The position numbers and the translations under genes were made by a program. Shown here piece by piece: positions 2,343 to 35,026 of a stretch of DNA of 35,026 nucleotides. This stretch comes from Acidobacteriota bacterium (GTDB taxonomy: Bacteria > Acidobacteriota > Thermoanaerobaculia > Gp7-AA8 > JAHWKK01), in NCBI GenBank assembly GCA_019347945.1, contig JAHWKK010000029.1:1-35026 (forward strand), read 5' to 3'. Each line of letters opens with the position of its first letter. The first letter of the stretch is position 1. Under the pieces are notes generated by a model. That model saw only the letters and a list, made by a program, of their open reading frames with translations. It searched no databases and was not told where the DNA came from.

Positions 2343-2878
2343 CGATCGGGATTGTTCCGATCTCGACGCGGGAGTCAAGTAGGTTGGAGGTTGGAGGTTG
2401 GAGGAGCCAGTTGCCGGTTGCCGGAGGCCGGTAGCCGGTTGCCGGTGTGCAACTAGGTTGATGGTTGCCACTCTTGTCCAGGTTGATTGTTACCACCCTC
2501 AGGTGGCGGCAGGAGCGGGGGGAACGTGGAAAAGGATTGCGGTGCTCGTCTCTCCTTTCTGTCCTGAGCGCTTCCACCGTTTCCGCGTTCGGGATCCGGT
2601 CAGCCCGCGCCAGCGGGCGACAGGTCTTAGCCCCCGGCTTCAGCCGGGGGACAGAAGCTTTCCTAAATTTAATGTCGAGCCCGCTTCAGCGGGCGACAGA
2701 GCGGAACAATCAACCTGGACATCTCTGGTAACAATGTACCCATCAACTGGCCACTGGCCACTGGCCACTGGCACCGGCAACCGGCAACCGACAACCGACG
2801 TCCTCGGAAATGACCCCAGGTTAGATATCGTTGGGAAACGGGCAGATCCCACAGTGCCGTGTCGTCCCGGCTCTTCCA
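2343..2878. repeat. Composite inverted-repeat element between divergent genes
   Basis: This 536-bp gap has no credible gene. From outside inward it shows AGGTTGG repeats (2381-2401), six degenerate heptads of the GGTTGCC type (2409-2450), a 17-bp arm at 2475-2491 with its exact reverse complement at 2705-2721, three hairpins (2602-2623, 2629-2654, 2678-2699), then eight in-register heptads (2743-2798) running from GCCACTG to CAACCGG to CAACCGA. The right heptads are the complement of the left ones, so the whole block is a nested inverted repeat. Promoters for plsC and the 2879 gene must lie at its edges; no clear box was seen. Confidence 0.8.
2602..2699. repeat. Three tandem AGCCC-hairpin-GACAG units
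   Basis: Three short hairpins share the frame AGCCC...GGG(C/G)GACAG. Unit 1 (2602-2623) has stem GCCCGC with loop GCCA. Unit 2 (2629-2654) has stem CCCCCGGC with loop TTCA. Unit 3 (2678-2699) has stem GCCCGC with loop TTCA. Stem bases differ between units while remaining paired, so the structure is kept by compensatory change. They resemble REP-type hairpins. None is followed by a T tract, so intrinsic termination is not supported. Confidence 0.75.
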
Positions 2879-6215: not shown

Positions 6216-6728
6216 ATCGGAACCGGGCGATCAGGATGACCAGTGTTGGAGGTTGGAGGTTCGAGGTTGGAGACTCGAAGTAATGATCTCGCGCCATTCC
6301 AACCCACGTCATTCTGAGCCCGGCGCAGCGCGGGCGAAGAATCTGGGCGGGGGATCGTGGAGAAGAGTGAAGAGTGAAGAGTGAAGAGTGAAAGAAGAGA
6401 CATCACGAAGGTAACCTCTGCATACTCTCACCCTTCACCCCCAATTCCTGCCGCCAGATCCTTCGCCGTCCTTCGGCGGCTCAGGATGAAACCACCATGA
6501 AATTGTTGGACTTCGACCCTTTTGCAGCGCTTCGCTTGGCCTGATGTCCCACCCTGCAAGGTCCCTCGCTTGCCCGCCCGACCGCCCGCTCGGGACGACG
6601 TCGGTTTGAGTATGAGGTGCGGAGTTTCGCGGACTCCGGTTTTCGTTCCCGCTTCACCGGCGCAACGCGCCGGTCAATTGCTCAGGATGACGTGGGCCGC
6701 GTTGCCCGAACTGGCAACTGGCAACTCC
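6216..6728. repeat. Composite intergenic repeat block
   Basis: No gene is seen here. In order: GTTGGAG heptads (6245-6272); an inner module (about 6312-6352, TCATTCTGAGC...GAATCTGG); four GAAGAGT heptads (6362-6389); the inverted counterpart of the module (about 6450-6488, AGATCCTTCGCC...CAGGATGA) containing hairpin CGCCGTCCTTCGGCG; a roughly 194-bp dispersed unit (6497-6690) ending in the hairpin at 6656-6674; and three CAACTGG-type heptads (6708-6728). The block lies at the 3' ends of converging transcription units, so its paired modules could stop transcription from both sides, although no T tracts support this. Confidence 0.75.
6497..6690 (+). repeat. Dispersed ~194-bp repeat unit, copy 1
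   Basis: The unit starts at ATGAAATTGTTGGACTTCG and ends near CAATTGCTCAGGATGA. The first ~125 bp recur at 9344-9470 on this strand and, reverse-complemented, at 21067-21194 and 21270-21390. The tail has a strong hairpin, ACCGGCGC-AAC-GCGCCGGT (6656-6674). It has short open frames in both directions, but frame is not conserved between copies, so it is treated as non-coding. Confidence 0.8.
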
Positions 6729-10943: not shown

Positions 10944-11245
10944 GGTGGATCAGGGATCAGGGGCCAGGAGCCAGGATTCAGGAGCCAGGATTCAGGAGCG
11001 CAGAACTCGTCATTCTGAGCCCGGCGAAGCACGGGCGAAGAATCTGGGTGGGGGATCGTGAGTCACCGTTGCCGCTCACTTGTTAACTTTTTTCACGAGC
11101 CGCCACCCAGATCCTTCGCCGTCCTTCGGCGGCTCAGGATGACGAGGGGGTGGGTTCGCGAGAGCAAACCTTCGGCCATGAATGTTGCATCGCGCAGGCT
11201 CGTCCCGCGTCCCTGAATCCTGGATCCTGGCTCCTGTCTCCTGCC
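10944..11245. repeat. Composite nested inverted repeat between convergent genes
   Basis: This 302-bp gap has no gene. Outer arms: seven heptads at 10948-10996 (GATCAGG, GGCCAGG, AGCCAGG and ATTCAGG types) and five at 11212-11246 (CCTGAAT, CCTGGAT, CCTGGCT, CCTGTCT, CCTGCCT), which are the reverse complement type. Inner arms: about 11009-11055 (TCATTCTGAGC...GAATCTGGGTGGGGG) and about 11102-11142 (CCACCCAGATCCTTCGCC...CTCAGGATGACG), again inverted. It sits between two genes reading toward each other, so it may act as a bidirectional transcription end. Confidence 0.82.
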
Positions 11246-13033
11246 TCACACGTCCAGGCCGATCTGGCGCATCAGCTCGACCGCGTTGCTTCGCTCGACG
11301 ACGCCCGGCTTCATTCCGTAATCGAAGATCATCTCGCCGTTCTCGATCCGGTCCTCGAAATGGACGTTCGCCGCGGTCGGGATCGACTCGGCGATCTTCG
11401 ATAGCGCCAGATCGTGAGTCGTGACGAGTCCGGAAGCCCCTCTCGCGAGCAGTGAACGGACGATCGCCTCGGCGCCGATCCGCCGGTCGTGCGAGTTGGT
11501 CCCGTGGAGGATCTCGTCGAGAAGAAAGAGAAAGGGTCGCTCGGATGACTCCGCCTCGCGGACGATGTCCCGGAGCCGGAGGATCTCGGCGTAGAAGCGT
11601 GAGCGCCGTTCGAGAAGCGAGTCGCGAACCTGAATCGACGCCCCGAGCCGCATCTCCGAGAGCCGAAGCGAGGCCGCGCAGACCGGAGCGCCTGCCAGAC
11701 CGAGAACGGTGTTGACCCCGACGGTGCGGAGAAACGTGCTCTTCCCCGACATGTTCGACCCGCTGATGACGAGAAGCTCGAGATTCGAATCGAGCCGGAA
11801 GTCATTGCGCACGAGCTCGACCGGAGGGATCAGCGGGTGGCCGGCCGCGGTGGCGTCGAAGAGAGGACGGCTCGAATCGACGATCTCCGGAAAGACGTAG
11901 TCCGGGTTCTCCCAGGCGAAGCTGCCGAAGGAGAGGAGCGCTTCGAGCTCGCCGAGGGCCTCGACCCATTCGCCTGCATGACTGCCGTACTTCCGGCGCC
12001 ACGCGCCGATGGCGAATGAAAGATTCGTGTCCCAGAGCAACAGCAGAGCGATCGGGTAGAAGATCTGGTTCCTTCGCGAGTCGAGCAGCGTCACCAGCTT
12101 CCGGAGCTTCCGGATTCCCCGGGCGGCCGCTTCCTCGCCGCCGATCAGAGTCTCGTGAATTCTCGCAAGGGCGGGATCGTCGAACAGTTCGTGCTCGATG
12201 CGCTCGAGCAGTGTCTCGAGAAGCATCAGGCTGTCGCTGATCGGTTCGATTCCGCTGAGGCTCGTCCGGTACCGGCGGCTGAGCCAGGCAGTTGCTGCCG
12301 ATGCCAGGACCGAAGCGAGAAACCACGATCTCGGGAGATCCGCTGCGAGCCAACCGAGGAGTGTGATGACGTTGGTGGCGGCGAAGAGGAGCGCGGCGAC
12401 GCGGAGTGCGACCGGTGCAGGGCCGGGGTCGGTCGAATCCGCTGCCGCGTCTGCAAAGGCATCGGGGCCGATCTCGGCCACATCCGGTCCGACGATCGAG
12501 AAGAGATCCTCGCGCAGCTCGCTCCGGTCCTGCAGCTCCCGGCTGGCCGTCTGCCGCTCGAGAATATCCGTCCGCGAAGCCGGCTCGAGGAGCCAGCGCG
12601 TGAGCGTGGTCCGTCCCGCCACGGTGCGAGCCGTCGAGATCAGCGAAACGACCGAGCCCGTTCCCGCGATGTCGAGATCGTCGGCATAGAGGTGATCTTC
12701 GGGGATCTCCGATTCGATCTCGGGGATCTCGTTCCAGTTGCGATCGATCCGGGCGATGCCGAGCGAGCAGAAGCGAGCACGCCGCTCGACGATCCGTTTC
12801 CGGCGGATGAGTCGTGCGTGAATCACGATCGCCACGATGAAAGCCAGAAGGGGAATCACCGAGAGCCAGCCGTTGAGCAATCCCTCGACGAAGGCCATCC
12901 ACGCGACGACGACGAAGAGAATGAACAGCGCCAGTCGCGTCCAGACGAGCGAACGCTCGCGGATGTCCAGCAGCTGCAGCTCGGCCGTCAGTTTGTCGAG
13001 CCGCGCCCGGTAACTGGAGCGGGGATCAGGCAC
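11246..13033 (-). CDS. Membrane-anchored MutS-like ATPase
   Basis: A 595-residue protein whose C-terminal domain is a MutS-type ATPase: Walker A GSNMSGKST (425-433), Walker B FLLDEI with the following HGTNSHDR (503-516), and TTHD (538-541). Canonical MutS mismatch-recognition domain I is missing. The N-terminal part instead has hydrophobic segments at about 32-50 and 54-72, another pair at about 208-230 and 236-250, and one at 325-342, so the protein should sit in the inner membrane. Residues 110-180 match the MutS core/lever region (SLISTARTVAGRTTLTRWLLEP). It starts 8 nt after the SEC-C gene stop, at the end of the rod-shape cluster. Role in mismatch repair is unlikely; function is unknown. 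Confidence 0.8.
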   Translation of the reverse strand: MPDPRSSYRARLDKLTAELQLLDIRERSLVWTRLALFILFVVVAWMAFVEGLLNGWLSVIPLLAFIVAIVIHARLIRRKRIVERRARFCSLGIARIDRNWNEIPEIESEIPEDHLYADDLDIAGTGSVVSLISTARTVAGRTTLTRWLLEPASRTDILERQTASRELQDRSELREDLFSIVGPDVAEIGPDAFADAAADSTDPGPAPVALRVAALLFAATNVITLLGWLAADLPRSWFLASVLASAATAWLSRRYRTSLSGIEPISDSLMLLETLLERIEHELFDDPALARIHETLIGGEEAAARGIRKLRKLVTLLDSRRNQIFYPIALLLLWDTNLSFAIGAWRRKYGSHAGEWVEALGELEALLSFGSFAWENPDYVFPEIVDSSRPLFDATAAGHPLIPPVELVRNDFRLDSNLELLVISGSNMSGKSTFLRTVGVNTVLGLAGAPVCAASLRLSEMRLGASIQVRDSLLERRSRFYAEILRLRDIVREAESSERPFLFLLDEILHGTNSHDRRIGAEAIVRSLLARGASGLVTTHDLALSKIAESIPTAANVHFEDRIENGEMIFDYGMKPGVVERSNAVELMRQIGLDV

Positions 13034-20837: not shown

Positions 20838-20993
20838 CCTTAAGGAGGTTGGAGGTTGGAGGTTGGAGGTTGGAGGAGCCAGGATCCAGGATTCAGGTCT
20901 GCCCGCGCTGCGCCGCGCTCAGAATGACGAATATTGTGTTTGTGCGCGACGCGACGATCATGGACGAATGTTTGCTCTGGCGAAAACCACCCC

Positions 20994-21194
20994 CTCGTTA
21001 TCCTGAGCAATTGACCGGCGCGTTGCGCCGGTGTATCGGAAATGACACCCGTGAGTAGAGAAAACCACCGCACGCCCATACTCAAACCCACGTCATCCCG
21101 AGCGGGCGGTCGGGCGGGGCAAGCGAGGGACCTTGCAGGGTGGGACATCAGGCCAGCCGAAGCGCTGCGAAAGGTCGAAGTCCAACAATTTCAT
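20994..21194 (-). repeat. Dispersed repeat unit, copy 3
   Basis: Reverse-strand copy of the unit at 6497-6690. It contains the hairpin at 21014-21032 and ends at TTTCAT (21189-21194), the complement of the unit start. Its middle (GGAAATGACACCCGTGAG) matches the copy at 9344 better than the copy at 6497, so subtypes exist. Confidence 0.75.
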
Positions 21195-21204
21195 GATCGT
21201 TTCA

Positions 21205-21390
21205 TTAGAAGCAATTGACCGGCGCGTTTGCGCCGGTGAAGCGGAGATGAAAACCGGAGCCCGCAAACCCCGCACCCCATACTCAAACCCACGTCGTCCC
21301 GAGCGGGCGGTCGAGCGGGCAAGCGAGGGACCTTGCAGGGTGGGACATCAGGCCAGGCGAAGCGTTGAGAGTGGTCGCGTCCAGGAAGTT
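21205..21390 (-). repeat. Dispersed repeat unit, copy 4
   Basis: Second reverse-strand copy, directly after copy 3, with hairpin ACCGGCGC-GTTT-GCGCCGGT (21218-21237). Its middle (GATGAAAACCGGAGCCCGC) matches the copy at 6497. Similarity decays after about 21370, where the typical start of the unit is diverged. Confidence 0.72.
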
Positions 21391-21622
21391 CGCCGTCGTG
21401 TCATTAGGAGCCGCCGAAGGACGGCGAAGGATCTGGGGGAAGGCTCGTGAAAGAAAGTGACGAGTGAGGGCAACGGTGACTCACGATCCGCCGCCCAGAT
21501 TCTTCGCCCGCGCTACGCCGGGCTCAGAATGACGACTGCTTCGCTCTCAACTCTGAATCCTGAATCCTGAATCCTGAGTCCTGAATCCTGACTCCTCCAA
21601 CCTCCAACCTCCAACCTCCAAC

Positions 21623-28358: not shown

Positions 28359-28394
28359 GAGAGGATTGTCGGGACTTGCGCGATGTCCCCACCA

Positions 28395-28780
28395 CCGGGA
28401 GGGCGAGGCGCCTGCCGAGCCGCACCGTCTCGAGCTTGCCCGAATCAAACCTGAAACCCACGACGTCCCATCCCCCCGGGAGGGCGAGGCGCCTGCCGAG
28501 CCGCACCGTAGCGAGCTTGCCTGAATCAACCCTGAAACCCAGGACGTCCCATCCCCCCGGGAGGGCGAGGCGCCTGCCGAGCCGCACTGTCTCGAGCTTG
28601 CCCGAATCAAACCTGAAACCCACGACGTCCCATCCCCCCGGGAGGGCGATGCGCCTGCGAGCCGCCCCGTAGCGAGCTTGCCTGAATCAACCCTGAAACC
28701 CGCGACGTTCCATTCCACCGGGAGGGCGATGCGCCTGCCGAGCCGCCCCGTAGCGAGCTTGCCTGAATCAATCATCGCGG
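28395..28780 (+). repeat. Array of five ~81-bp REP-containing units
   Basis: Units start at 28395, 28476, 28557, 28638 and 28718 (periods 81, 81, 81 and 80). Each begins with a ~31-bp GC-rich core, CCGGGAGGGCGAGGCG then CCTGCCGAGCCGC, able to fold around GGCGCC. The rest is linker. Units 1 and 3 share one linker form (CTCGAGCTTGCCCG) and 2, 4 and 5 another (AGCGAGCTTGCCTG), so there is a 162-bp higher-order period. The last unit runs into the stop codon of the transposase gene. It fills the convergent gap between cmk and the RAYT gene; nothing else is seen there. Confidence 0.88.
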
Positions 28781-29304: not shown

Positions 29305-29540
29305 GCGCCAGTTCGTCGCGGTGCGGCTCGGCAGGCGCCTCGCCCTCCCGGTGAGATGTTTCATCGCGCCAGTTCGTCGCGGTGCGGCTCGGCCGGCGCC
29401 TCGCCCTCCCGGTGAGATGTTTCATCGCGCCAGCTTGTCACGGGGCGGCTCGGCGGGCGCCTCGCCCTCCCGGTGAGATGTTTCATCGCGCCAGCCCGTC
29501 GCGGTGCGGCTCGGCGGGCGCCTCGCCCTCCCGGTGATGG
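29305..29540 (-). repeat. Array of four 61-bp REP-containing units, opposed to the 28395 array
   Basis: Units start at 29305, 29366, 29427 and 29488. Each holds GTGCGGCTCGG then a GCGCCTCGCCCTCCCGG stretch, the reverse complement of the core at 28395, joined by a shorter linker (GTGAGATGTTTCATCGCGCC). Variation between units is concentrated at the centre of the hairpin (GGCAGGCGCC, GGCCGGCGCC, GGCGGGCGCC). The array lies between the RAYT start and the 3' end of pckA; no gene is seen in this 305-bp gap. Confidence 0.87.
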
Positions 29541-32695: not shown

Positions 32696-33319
32696 ATGAT
32701 GAAAACCCTCAGAGTTTCTCTGACAGCTTTGTTCGTCGCATTCGTTGCTTCGGGCGTGTCGGCTTCGACCGCATCCGAGCTTCGCGACGCTCTGATGAAG
32801 AGCGCCGGTCATCGCGCCGACTTCACCCAGGAGTTCACGGCAAAGGGCTTCAGCAAACCGCGTGTCGAATCGGGGAGCGTCGTGATTGGAAAACTTCCGA
32901 ACATGCGCTGGAGCTACGAGAGCCCGGAGGTCAAGACGTTCGTTTTCGACGGCACGACCTCGTGGTTCTGGGCGAAGGAAGACAACCAGGTGCTCGTTCA
33001 CGAGGTGGGCGCGGACGAGAGAGCGTCGCTCCCATTCGTGTTTCTGACGAACACGGAGTGGCTCGAACAGAATTACGCGATCTCGCAGGAGTCGAGGCAG
33101 GGCTCGAAGGTCGTGAAGCTCGCACCGAAAAAGCGGGGACTCGTCAGCGAGATCGAGATCGAGGTCGATCGCAGATCCGGATACGTCCGCGAGCTGAGCT
33201 GGGTCGACGACGCGGGCAACCGGACCAGGTTCCGGCTGTCGAACTACCGGCCGGTCCGAGTCGCTGCATCGACGTTCTCCTTCGACCCGCCTCCGGGCGC
33301 CTCGGTTGTCGAGAACTGA
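32696..33319 (+). CDS. lolA: Outer-membrane lipoprotein carrier protein LolA
   Basis: Periplasmic chaperone that carries lipoproteins from LolCDE to the outer membrane; 207 residues with a signal peptide (residues about 1-24, cleavage near VSASTA). Family features include RADFTQEFTAKGFSKPRVESGSVVIGKLPNMRWSYESPEVKTFVFDG and the later LSWVDDAGNRTRFRLSNYRP. An AGGAG lies 5-9 nt before the paired ATGs at 32696 and 32699. No LolB gene is visible. A decamer repeat spans its stop codon. Confidence 0.88.
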   Translation: MMKTLRVSLTALFVAFVASGVSASTASELRDALMKSAGHRADFTQEFTAKGFSKPRVESGSVVIGKLPNMRWSYESPEVKTFVFDGTTSWFWAKEDNQVLVHEVGADERASLPFVFLTNTEWLEQNYAISQESRQGSKVVKLAPKKRGLVSEIEIEVDRRSGYVRELSWVDDAGNRTRFRLSNYRPVRVAASTFSFDPPPGASVVEN

Positions 33320-33349
33320 CGAGAACTGACGAGAACTGACGAGAACTGA
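33309..33349 (+). repeat. Decamer tandem repeat across the lolA stop
   Basis: About four copies of ACGAGAACTG, the first containing the lolA stop codon. The 10-bp period means each later copy offers a stop in a changing frame. It lies just before the yajQ Shine-Dalgarno (GGGGAGG). Confidence 0.75.
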
Positions 33350-33892: not shown

Positions 33893-34909
33893 GTGACGAT
33901 TTCCCGAGGCTCAATCGCCCGCGAGGCGACCGCCGCCACAACCGCGAAGTTTCTCGAAGTGATCGCGCCTCGTCTCCTTCTCGTCGAGGAAGAGCTGGAA
34001 AAGAACTTCCGCTCGGAGATCGCCACGATCAACGACGTCGGCCAGCATATTCTCGCGGGAGGGGGGAAACGGATCCGGCCCGCGCTGCTGCTCCTCTCCT
34101 CGTCGATGATCGGTTACGAGGGGGATGCCGACGTCCGGTACGCGGCGGTCATCGAGCTGATCCACACCGCGACGCTGGTTCATGACGACGTCATCGACGG
34201 CGCCGATACCAGACGCGGTCGCAGCTCGGTCAACTACCACTGGGGAAATCATCTGACGGTTCTGGTCGGAGACTATCTGTACACCCATGCGATGAAGATG
34301 GCGATTCGCGAAGGGCGGATGGAGATCGTCGATCTTCTCTGCGACGCGACGATCCATCTCACCGAGGGTGAGATCCTGGGGCTCGAGACGAAGGGGCGGA
34401 TCGATCTGACCAGTGACGAGTACTTCGAGCTGATCGGCAGAAAGACGGCGTCGCTTTTCGCTGCCGGCTGCCAGCTTCCCGGACACCTCGTCGATCTCGA
34501 CCCGGCCGAGCTCCGCGCGCTTCACGATTACGGATACAACCTGGGAATCTGCTTCCAGCTCACCGACGACCTGCTCGACTACACGCAGACCGCGAATGTG
34601 ATCGGCAAGCCGGTTCTGGCGGATCTCCGCGAGGGGAAGGCGACGCTCCCGTTGATTCTCGCGCTGCAGGACGCCTCCGGCGACGACGTCGACCGGGTCA
34701 GGCGGATCGCCGGCGAGAACGTCTTCGAGAGCGGGGACGAGCGCGCGTTGCTCGAGATGCTCGAGCGGCACCGGGCGATCGATCGCGCCAGGGAGATTGC
34801 ACGCGAGTATGCCGACCGGGCGCTGGGCGCGCTCGAATCGTTTCCGGCGTCGGTGTCGCGCGAAGGGCTCGAGTTCGCGGTCGGCTATGTCCTCGACCGC
34901 GATCGCTGA
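33893..34909 (+). CDS. ispB: Long-chain polyprenyl diphosphate synthase
   Basis: Elongates allylic diphosphates with isopentenyl diphosphate to make a quinone or lipid-carrier side chain; 338 residues. The first Asp-rich motif is HDDVIDGAD (Asp98, Asp99, Asp102) and the second is QLTDDLLDY (Asp225, Asp226, Asp229); GGGKRIRPALL binds the diphosphate. Ala93, five residues before the first motif, is small, which in this family allows a long product. With mqnD in the same window a menaquinone tail is the likely product, though this is inference. The GTG start follows a TATTCT box with no Shine-Dalgarno. Confidence 0.9.
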   Translation: MTISRGSIAREATAATTAKFLEVIAPRLLLVEEELEKNFRSEIATINDVGQHILAGGGKRIRPALLLLSSSMIGYEGDADVRYAAVIELIHTATLVHDDVIDGADTRRGRSSVNYHWGNHLTVLVGDYLYTHAMKMAIREGRMEIVDLLCDATIHLTEGEILGLETKGRIDLTSDEYFELIGRKTASLFAAGCQLPGHLVDLDPAELRALHDYGYNLGICFQLTDDLLDYTQTANVIGKPVLADLREGKATLPLILALQDASGDDVDRVRRIAGENVFESGDERALLEMLERHRAIDRAREIAREYADRALGALESFPASVSREGLEFAVGYVLDRDR

Positions 34910-35026
34910 GGTTGGAGGTTCGAGGTTGGAGGTTGGAAGAGTGAAGAGTGAAGAGTGAAGAGTGAAGAGTGAAGAGTGAAGAGTGAAGAGTGAAGAGTGA
35001 AGAGTGAAGAGTGAAGAGTGAAGAGT
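34909..35026 (+). repeat. In-register heptad array at the window end
   Basis: Four AGGTTGG-type heptads (34909-34936, one with TTCG) continue without a register break into nearly thirteen copies of AAGAGTG (34937-35026). The first heptad includes the last base of the ispB stop codon. The array runs off the window edge, so its true length and any inverted partner are unknown. Confidence 0.92.

Follow-up and report, generated by a model that had tools for sequence, protein, structure and literature searches.

Contig C29 of this acidobacterial genome ends in a tandem array of 7-bp units in which one word, AGGTTGG, gives way to another, GAAGAGT. The locus raises the question of what such arrays are, and of how a spacing of 7 bp can be kept while the word changes. 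In the present study, we analyzed the window, which is the whole stretch of 35,026 nucleotides presented as contig C29, within a sample of 1.98 Mb from the 3.72-Mb, 49-contig genome.

Period-7 arrays between genes

Genes were called with a simple home-made codon model, which gave 1,614 genes in the 1.98 Mb, and intergenic tracts with a score of at least 14 were counted at each lag. At lag 7, 165 intergenic tracts covering 7,125 bp were observed, whereas lags that are not a multiple of 7 gave at most eight each. Markov shuffles of stretches from C1, C2, and the window contained no period-7 tracts. These results indicated that period-7 tandem arrays were over-represented between genes; the excess of period 7 over 6, 8, and 9, for which the lag scan had been set as a refutation test by an earlier sequence-only reading, was confirmed. 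Every array cited in that reading was recovered in the window by Tandem Repeats Finder and by reading the letters directly. GAAGAGT was the commonest array word in the sampled genome, and the words E, D, and P were three of the four commonest. The headline array coincides with a contig end, as an assembly artefact might; however, the majority are embedded in contigs with unique genes on either side, and comparable arrays are present in isolate genomes and finished plasmids, which makes an artefact hardly credible.

The arrays of the window are collected in Table 1, in which the plus strand is defined as the purine-rich, AG-bearing strand. The headline array starts inside the stop codon (TGA, 34907-34909) of a polyprenyl synthetase gene and reaches the last base of the contig (35,026); the extent given is a minimum.

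Table 1. Heptad arrays of the window, with their place in inverted pairs.
Feature	Position	Strand	Basis or remark
Left arm, AGGTTGG to AGGAGCC/AGTTGCC/GGTTGCC (V to P family)	2381..2446	+	Tandem Repeats Finder, reading
Right arm paired with 2381..2446; inward GGTTGCC/AGTGGCC; one 6-base unit	2746..2797	-	
Left arm, AGGTTGG array	6245..6278	+	
Left arm, GAAGAGT array, separate from 6245..6278	6362..6392	+	
Probable right arm, AACTGGC (inward AGTTGCC)	6709..6726	-	
Left arm, AGGGATC to AGGAGCC/AGGATTC, convergent intergenic region	10947..10999	+	
Right arm paired with 10947..10999	11212..11247	-	RNA fold of pair, z = -11.9
Left arm, AGGTTGG to AGGAGCC/AGGATCC/AGGATTC (V to Q)	20844..20897	+	
Right arm mirroring 20844..20897 (V outside, Q inside)	21553..21622	-	
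Headline left arm, AGGTTGG then GAAGAGT x13	34908..35026	+	

It had been proposed that the arrays change their word without losing register. At the headline switch (34936/34937) the word does change, but the meeting on a heptad boundary is trivial: a word may be written in any rotation, and every abutting pair of period-7 tracts therefore meets on one. Measured from the AG anchor, the two parts are out of phase by 3. Register is also lost at 2743-2798, which contains a 6-base unit, GCACCG, with one base missing (4% indels in Tandem Repeats Finder), and 6245-6272 and 6362-6389, taken as one word-switching array, are two arrays 90 bp apart. The AG anchor did stay in phase through the word change at 20844-20897, 21553-21622, 10947-10999, and 2381-2446. 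In the sampled genome, AG phase survived the word change in 13 of 16 arms, and the AG (or GG) anchor kept its phase at 21 of 24 junctions between the V, D, Q, and P families (chance 1/7), with some freedom in this test since words were anchored on AG by the analyst and AG occurs twice in two of the words. At E-word junctions the AG phase was not kept. Word mixing occurred mostly among variants of one family, different families being mixed in only 16 of 165 arms. AG was enriched in the inward words (39 of 49, against 25.9 expected; absent from the other 10), and within arrays its conservation exceeded that of the other heptad positions (p = 0.007). The proposals that spacing is conserved more than the word, and that slippage of a single word is an insufficient explanation, were both borne out.

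Polarity and pairing of the arms

Arrays were found in 118 intergenic regions, in the order plus-minus in 47, minus alone in 40, plus alone in 31, and minus-plus in none. In all 118 regions, the AG-bearing, purine-rich strand ran from the gene edge to the intergenic interior, with each arm lying close to the gene on its own side. Matched inverted arms, comparable to the terminal inverted repeats of MITEs, were present in 36 of the 47 pairs, in which both arms came from one word family (11.5 expected). The arrays form the arms of inverted pairs whose polarity is fixed. This had been missed by the sequence-only reading, as had the word family common to both arms, the AG retained as words change, and the bracketing of PF05635 genes described below. 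Folding of array pairs as RNA gave z = -8.7 and -11.9, so the arms are predicted to form a stem. Binding on one face of the DNA had been suggested as possible, three heptads (21 bp) being equal to two helical turns; reading as a single strand (RNA) fits the AG strand bias and the complementarity of the arms at least as well.

An unlikely alternative is that the arrays are heptameric simple repeats growing by slippage, that the second arm arises by fold-back template switching (quasi-palindrome correction), and that IVP genes, described below, merely accumulate there. Heptamers are reported as over-represented among bacterial repeats (PMC4692102), the word variants within a family resemble the outcome of point mutation plus slippage, and template switching would yield matched arms without a mobile element. 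However, this explanation gives no account of a period of 7 rather than 6, 8, or 9, or of the complete absence of the minus-plus order.

The outermost arrays lay at a median of about 4 bp from stop codons but mostly at least 14 bp from start codons, and arrays occurred at 102 of 909 gene 3' ends compared with 62 of 1,042 gene 5' ends. They were most frequent in convergent regions (42 of 154). Both the closeness to stop codons and the convergent maximum would suit gene-end regulatory structures kept for host function, such as terminators, mRNA-stabilizing hairpins, or G-quadruplexes, as would the long RNA stems predicted; moreover, heptamers of Xanthomonas and Nostoc are reported to form G-quadruplexes in vitro and to be largely transcribed (PMC4692102). 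Against this, the arms stand hundreds of bases apart and occur in divergent regions too, GAAGAGT has no G-runs, and among 101 related genomes only 4 carry arrays of this word. In other phyla, several GAAGAGT arrays start at or inside a stop codon, and paired arms can bracket an apparent host terminator, so that the arrays lie outside the terminator hairpin. We therefore regard a host regulatory role as improbable.

Other repeats accompany the arrays. Dispersed intergenic modules, for example CGTCATTCTGAGC...GAAGAATCT and GAGCCGCCGAAGGACGGCGAAGGATC, lie inside array pairs (10999-11212, 20898-21552, 6278-6709) and are often near-palindromes. Their orientation is free and they do not follow the polarity rule, and we rejected them as part of the array unit. 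At 28392-28771 and 29305-29537, tandem repeats of 81 bp and 61 bp flank about 530 bp next to a PEPCK gene and share a common core, CCGGGAGGGCGAGGCGCC, in opposite orientation. A perfect tandem repeat of period 10, CGAGAACTGA x4, occupies 33310-33349.

The genome also holds eight Y1_Tnp matches along with its many dispersed intergenic repeats, as would be expected if the arrays were REP/BIME sequences moved by TnpA_REP (RAYT) transposases. A REP sequence adjoins its TnpA_REP gene, yet no heptad array lay near any of the eight Y1_Tnp genes. Two of these TnpA_REP-like genes (L274 and L275; G000:C8:405-740 and C5:112637-112972) are flanked instead by modules m and n (GCGGGCGACAGA and CCGGCTTCAGCCGG) in both orientations, and the inner modules, with their free orientation, fall outside the polarity rule. 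A REP/RAYT origin of the heptads was rejected on these grounds as very unlikely. Modules m and n, which are also dispersed between genes, look like the ordinary REP/RAYT system of this genome together with the TnpA_REP-like genes.

S23P/IVP genes between heptad arms

The sampled genome contains five genes of the S23P/IVP family (PF05635). Three of them are bracketed by matched arms (D|IVP|D, E|IVP|E, and P|IVP|P), and a fourth (L270) has hexamer arms. Among 33 Acidobacteriota IVP loci, which are the best-scoring matches of each search rather than a random draw, 12 had arrays on both sides by the strict threshold and 22 by the loose one, compared with 0 of 26 control NTP_transf_2 genes. One of the 33, L290, is a truncated locus with an unreliable arm pair; without it the loose count was 21 of 32 (Fisher p = 4e-8; 6e-4 at the strict threshold). 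The arm words matched in inverted orientation in 11 of 12 loci, and an inverted repeat exceeding 99% of the null was found at 18 of 30 IVP loci and at none of 25 controls. Within single genomes, the IVP elements each carry a word of their own in matched arms. The slippage explanation does not account for this bracketing of IVP genes while control genes are unbracketed.

In an independent set of named plasmid and viral-contig IVP loci, likewise best-scoring matches, arrays stood on both sides in 12 of 17, the viral contigs contributing only three IVP relatives. Positions in this set included nrdB-nrdA, cas6-cas4 (twice), and cas10-cmr3. IVP genes of cyanobacterial plasmids were bracketed by heptad arrays, and at L429, L422, and L430 gene and arrays lie inside cas operons (cas10/cmr3, cas6/cas4). 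The flanks of L428, L430, L366, L270, and L436 were exceptional (direct, 8-base, hexamer, or non-heptad): the arrays run in the same direction at L430 and L428, and L436 has a non-heptad inverted repeat. Bracketing was weak in Bacteroidota (1 of 30 strict, 5 of 30 loose), where no IVP locus exceeded the 99% inverted-repeat null. Five of six further IVP loci of genome G250 had no paired arrays, and some genomes carry many IVP copies without obvious arrays.

In the window and the other sampled array-bearing intergenic regions, neither an IVP gene nor a recognizable remnant of one was found between the arms, and in the window the ORFs enclosed by arms had no Pfam match; the five S23P genes are elsewhere in the genome. 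The link of these gene-less pairs to IVP therefore rests on shared words, polarity, and pairing.

Among the matches listed, exact (GAAGAGT)5 occurred in Bacteroidota, Planctomycetota, Verrucomicrobiota, Campylobacterota, Pseudomonadota, Myxococcota, Nitrospirota, Chloroflexota, and others. On a Campylobacteraceae contig (L206), a GAAGAGT pair brackets a PF05635 gene. All 16 GAAGAGT-array genomes searched hold IVP, a co-occurrence that is only suggestive because IVP is present in 146 of 297 Acidobacteriota and 90 of 118 Bacteroidota genomes.

One orthologous operon site in genus g85, between genes that look like pdhA and pdhB, was compared in empty and filled form between species, whose divergence is too great for a target-site duplication to be resolved; neither such a duplication nor movement was observed. 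In many species 16-64 bp separate the two genes, and the site is empty at L313, L318, and L331. It holds an IVP gene of clade 1 with AGTGGTC arms at L311 and L323 (genomes G250 and G401), an IVP gene of clade 2 with GTGAGCA or GTAAGCA arms at L333 and L335 (genomes G389 and G385), and a solo short AGTGGTC array at L315 (genome G278); further species carry unrelated inserts. Two IVP clades with different words occupy the same site; therefore, different elements reach the same place. Slippage does not explain why two IVP clades would each bring their own word to one site.

Proposed element and known systems

Based on these results, we propose, with a probability of about 0.62, that the heptad pairs form the inverted ends, or stems, of small selfish elements resembling IVSs, with S23P/IVP as their coding member. 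An intact element would read (AGNNNNN)n - IVP gene - (NNNNNCT)n, usually over about 0.4-0.6 kb, and would be placed between genes, often within operons. The window arrays would be the ends of related gene-less elements, degenerate or non-autonomous, which probably descend from IVP elements or receive help from them. The mobility of the array elements and the manner described next are inferred.

The stem and ring steps of the mechanism are put forward tentatively. At the RNA level, base pairing of the arms may produce a stem like those of 23S rRNA IVSs. The IVS of Coxiella is excised by RNase III (PMC4990558), and with such a stem insertion into an operon would be tolerated. The S23p protein of Xanthomonas is a homopentameric ring (PMC4990558), and the sole solved relative found for the IVP family by sequence, 2RLD, has five chains. 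A pentameric IVP ring might contact the AG repeat of the leader, with one AG and 7 nt per subunit. Such a ring could be compared with TRAP, which reads triplets. If the ring reads AG, the spacing and the AG would be held while the other bases drift, slip, or are exchanged between elements. A broader version, possible but doubtful, is that heptad arrays throughout bacteria serve a widespread class of mobile elements as binding sites and ends. Such elements would be built on the IVP ring and would need no classical transposase to move themselves, and also gene-less copies, from operon to operon; the pentamer would read one AG per subunit at 7 nt, so that the spacing is kept and the word is free.

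STRR sequences of filamentous cyanobacteria, a group to which the present acidobacterium does not belong, are heptad tandem repeats between genes; neither paired arms nor a gene forms part of their definition. Heptanucleotides of Calothrix are cited in PMC4692102. The GGGNATC heptamers of Xanthomonas and Nostoc, as presented there, are likewise intergenic with a period of 7, and they have the polarity seen here, the G-rich strand being in sense orientation downstream of stop codons and in antisense orientation ahead of ORFs. They are reported as G-quadruplex repeats, and the abstract and introduction do not mention arm pairing or IVP genes; in contrast, several words here, GAAGAGT among them, lack the G-runs of a quadruplex-forming word. 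The TAACTGA repeats of Beggiatoaceae (PMC4679880) are also heptad direct repeats between genes with a patchy distribution across phyla; however, they use a single word, which mostly lies in the forward direction and directly before start codons, and translational regulation was suggested for them.

The elements also resemble the IVS of 23S rRNA in Coxiella and Leptospira (PMC4990558), which has an S23P gene and inverted flanks able to form an RNA stem, as the arrays do in predicted folds, and is regarded as selfish. In Coxiella, tandem heptamers (GACAGAT) whose number varies between strains lie directly upstream of the S23p ORF (PMC4990558). The elements described here differ in being intergenic or operonic and not in 23S rRNA (Rfam gave no RNA family match in the window), in having long heptad arrays as both arms with a word that differs per element, and in the window copies without an S23P gene. 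In the open-access literature, we found no paper describing heptad arrays that bracket S23P genes outside rRNA. Genes annotated 23S_rRNA_IVP have been reported to adjoin cas4 and cas6 and were read as having a CRISPR-Cas-associated function (PMC3936711). The IVP genes of the cas loci in our set are bracketed by heptad arrays, which fits insertion into an operon, and such insertion may explain the reported association.

The over-representation of heptamer repeats in bacteria is an old observation that lacks an explanation, and the S23P/IVP proteins, although common, have no known function. The link between them would give both a testable role and predicts what IVP binds; it would also explain the period of 7 and the recurrence of the same words in distant phyla. 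Many intergenic repeats and odd operon genes, including those in cas operons, would then be copies of one selfish element. Collectively, the inward-pointing array pairs, an arrangement shared with the small, widespread S23P gene in several phyla, suggest that these puzzling bacterial repeats are part of a family of mobile elements that has received little study.
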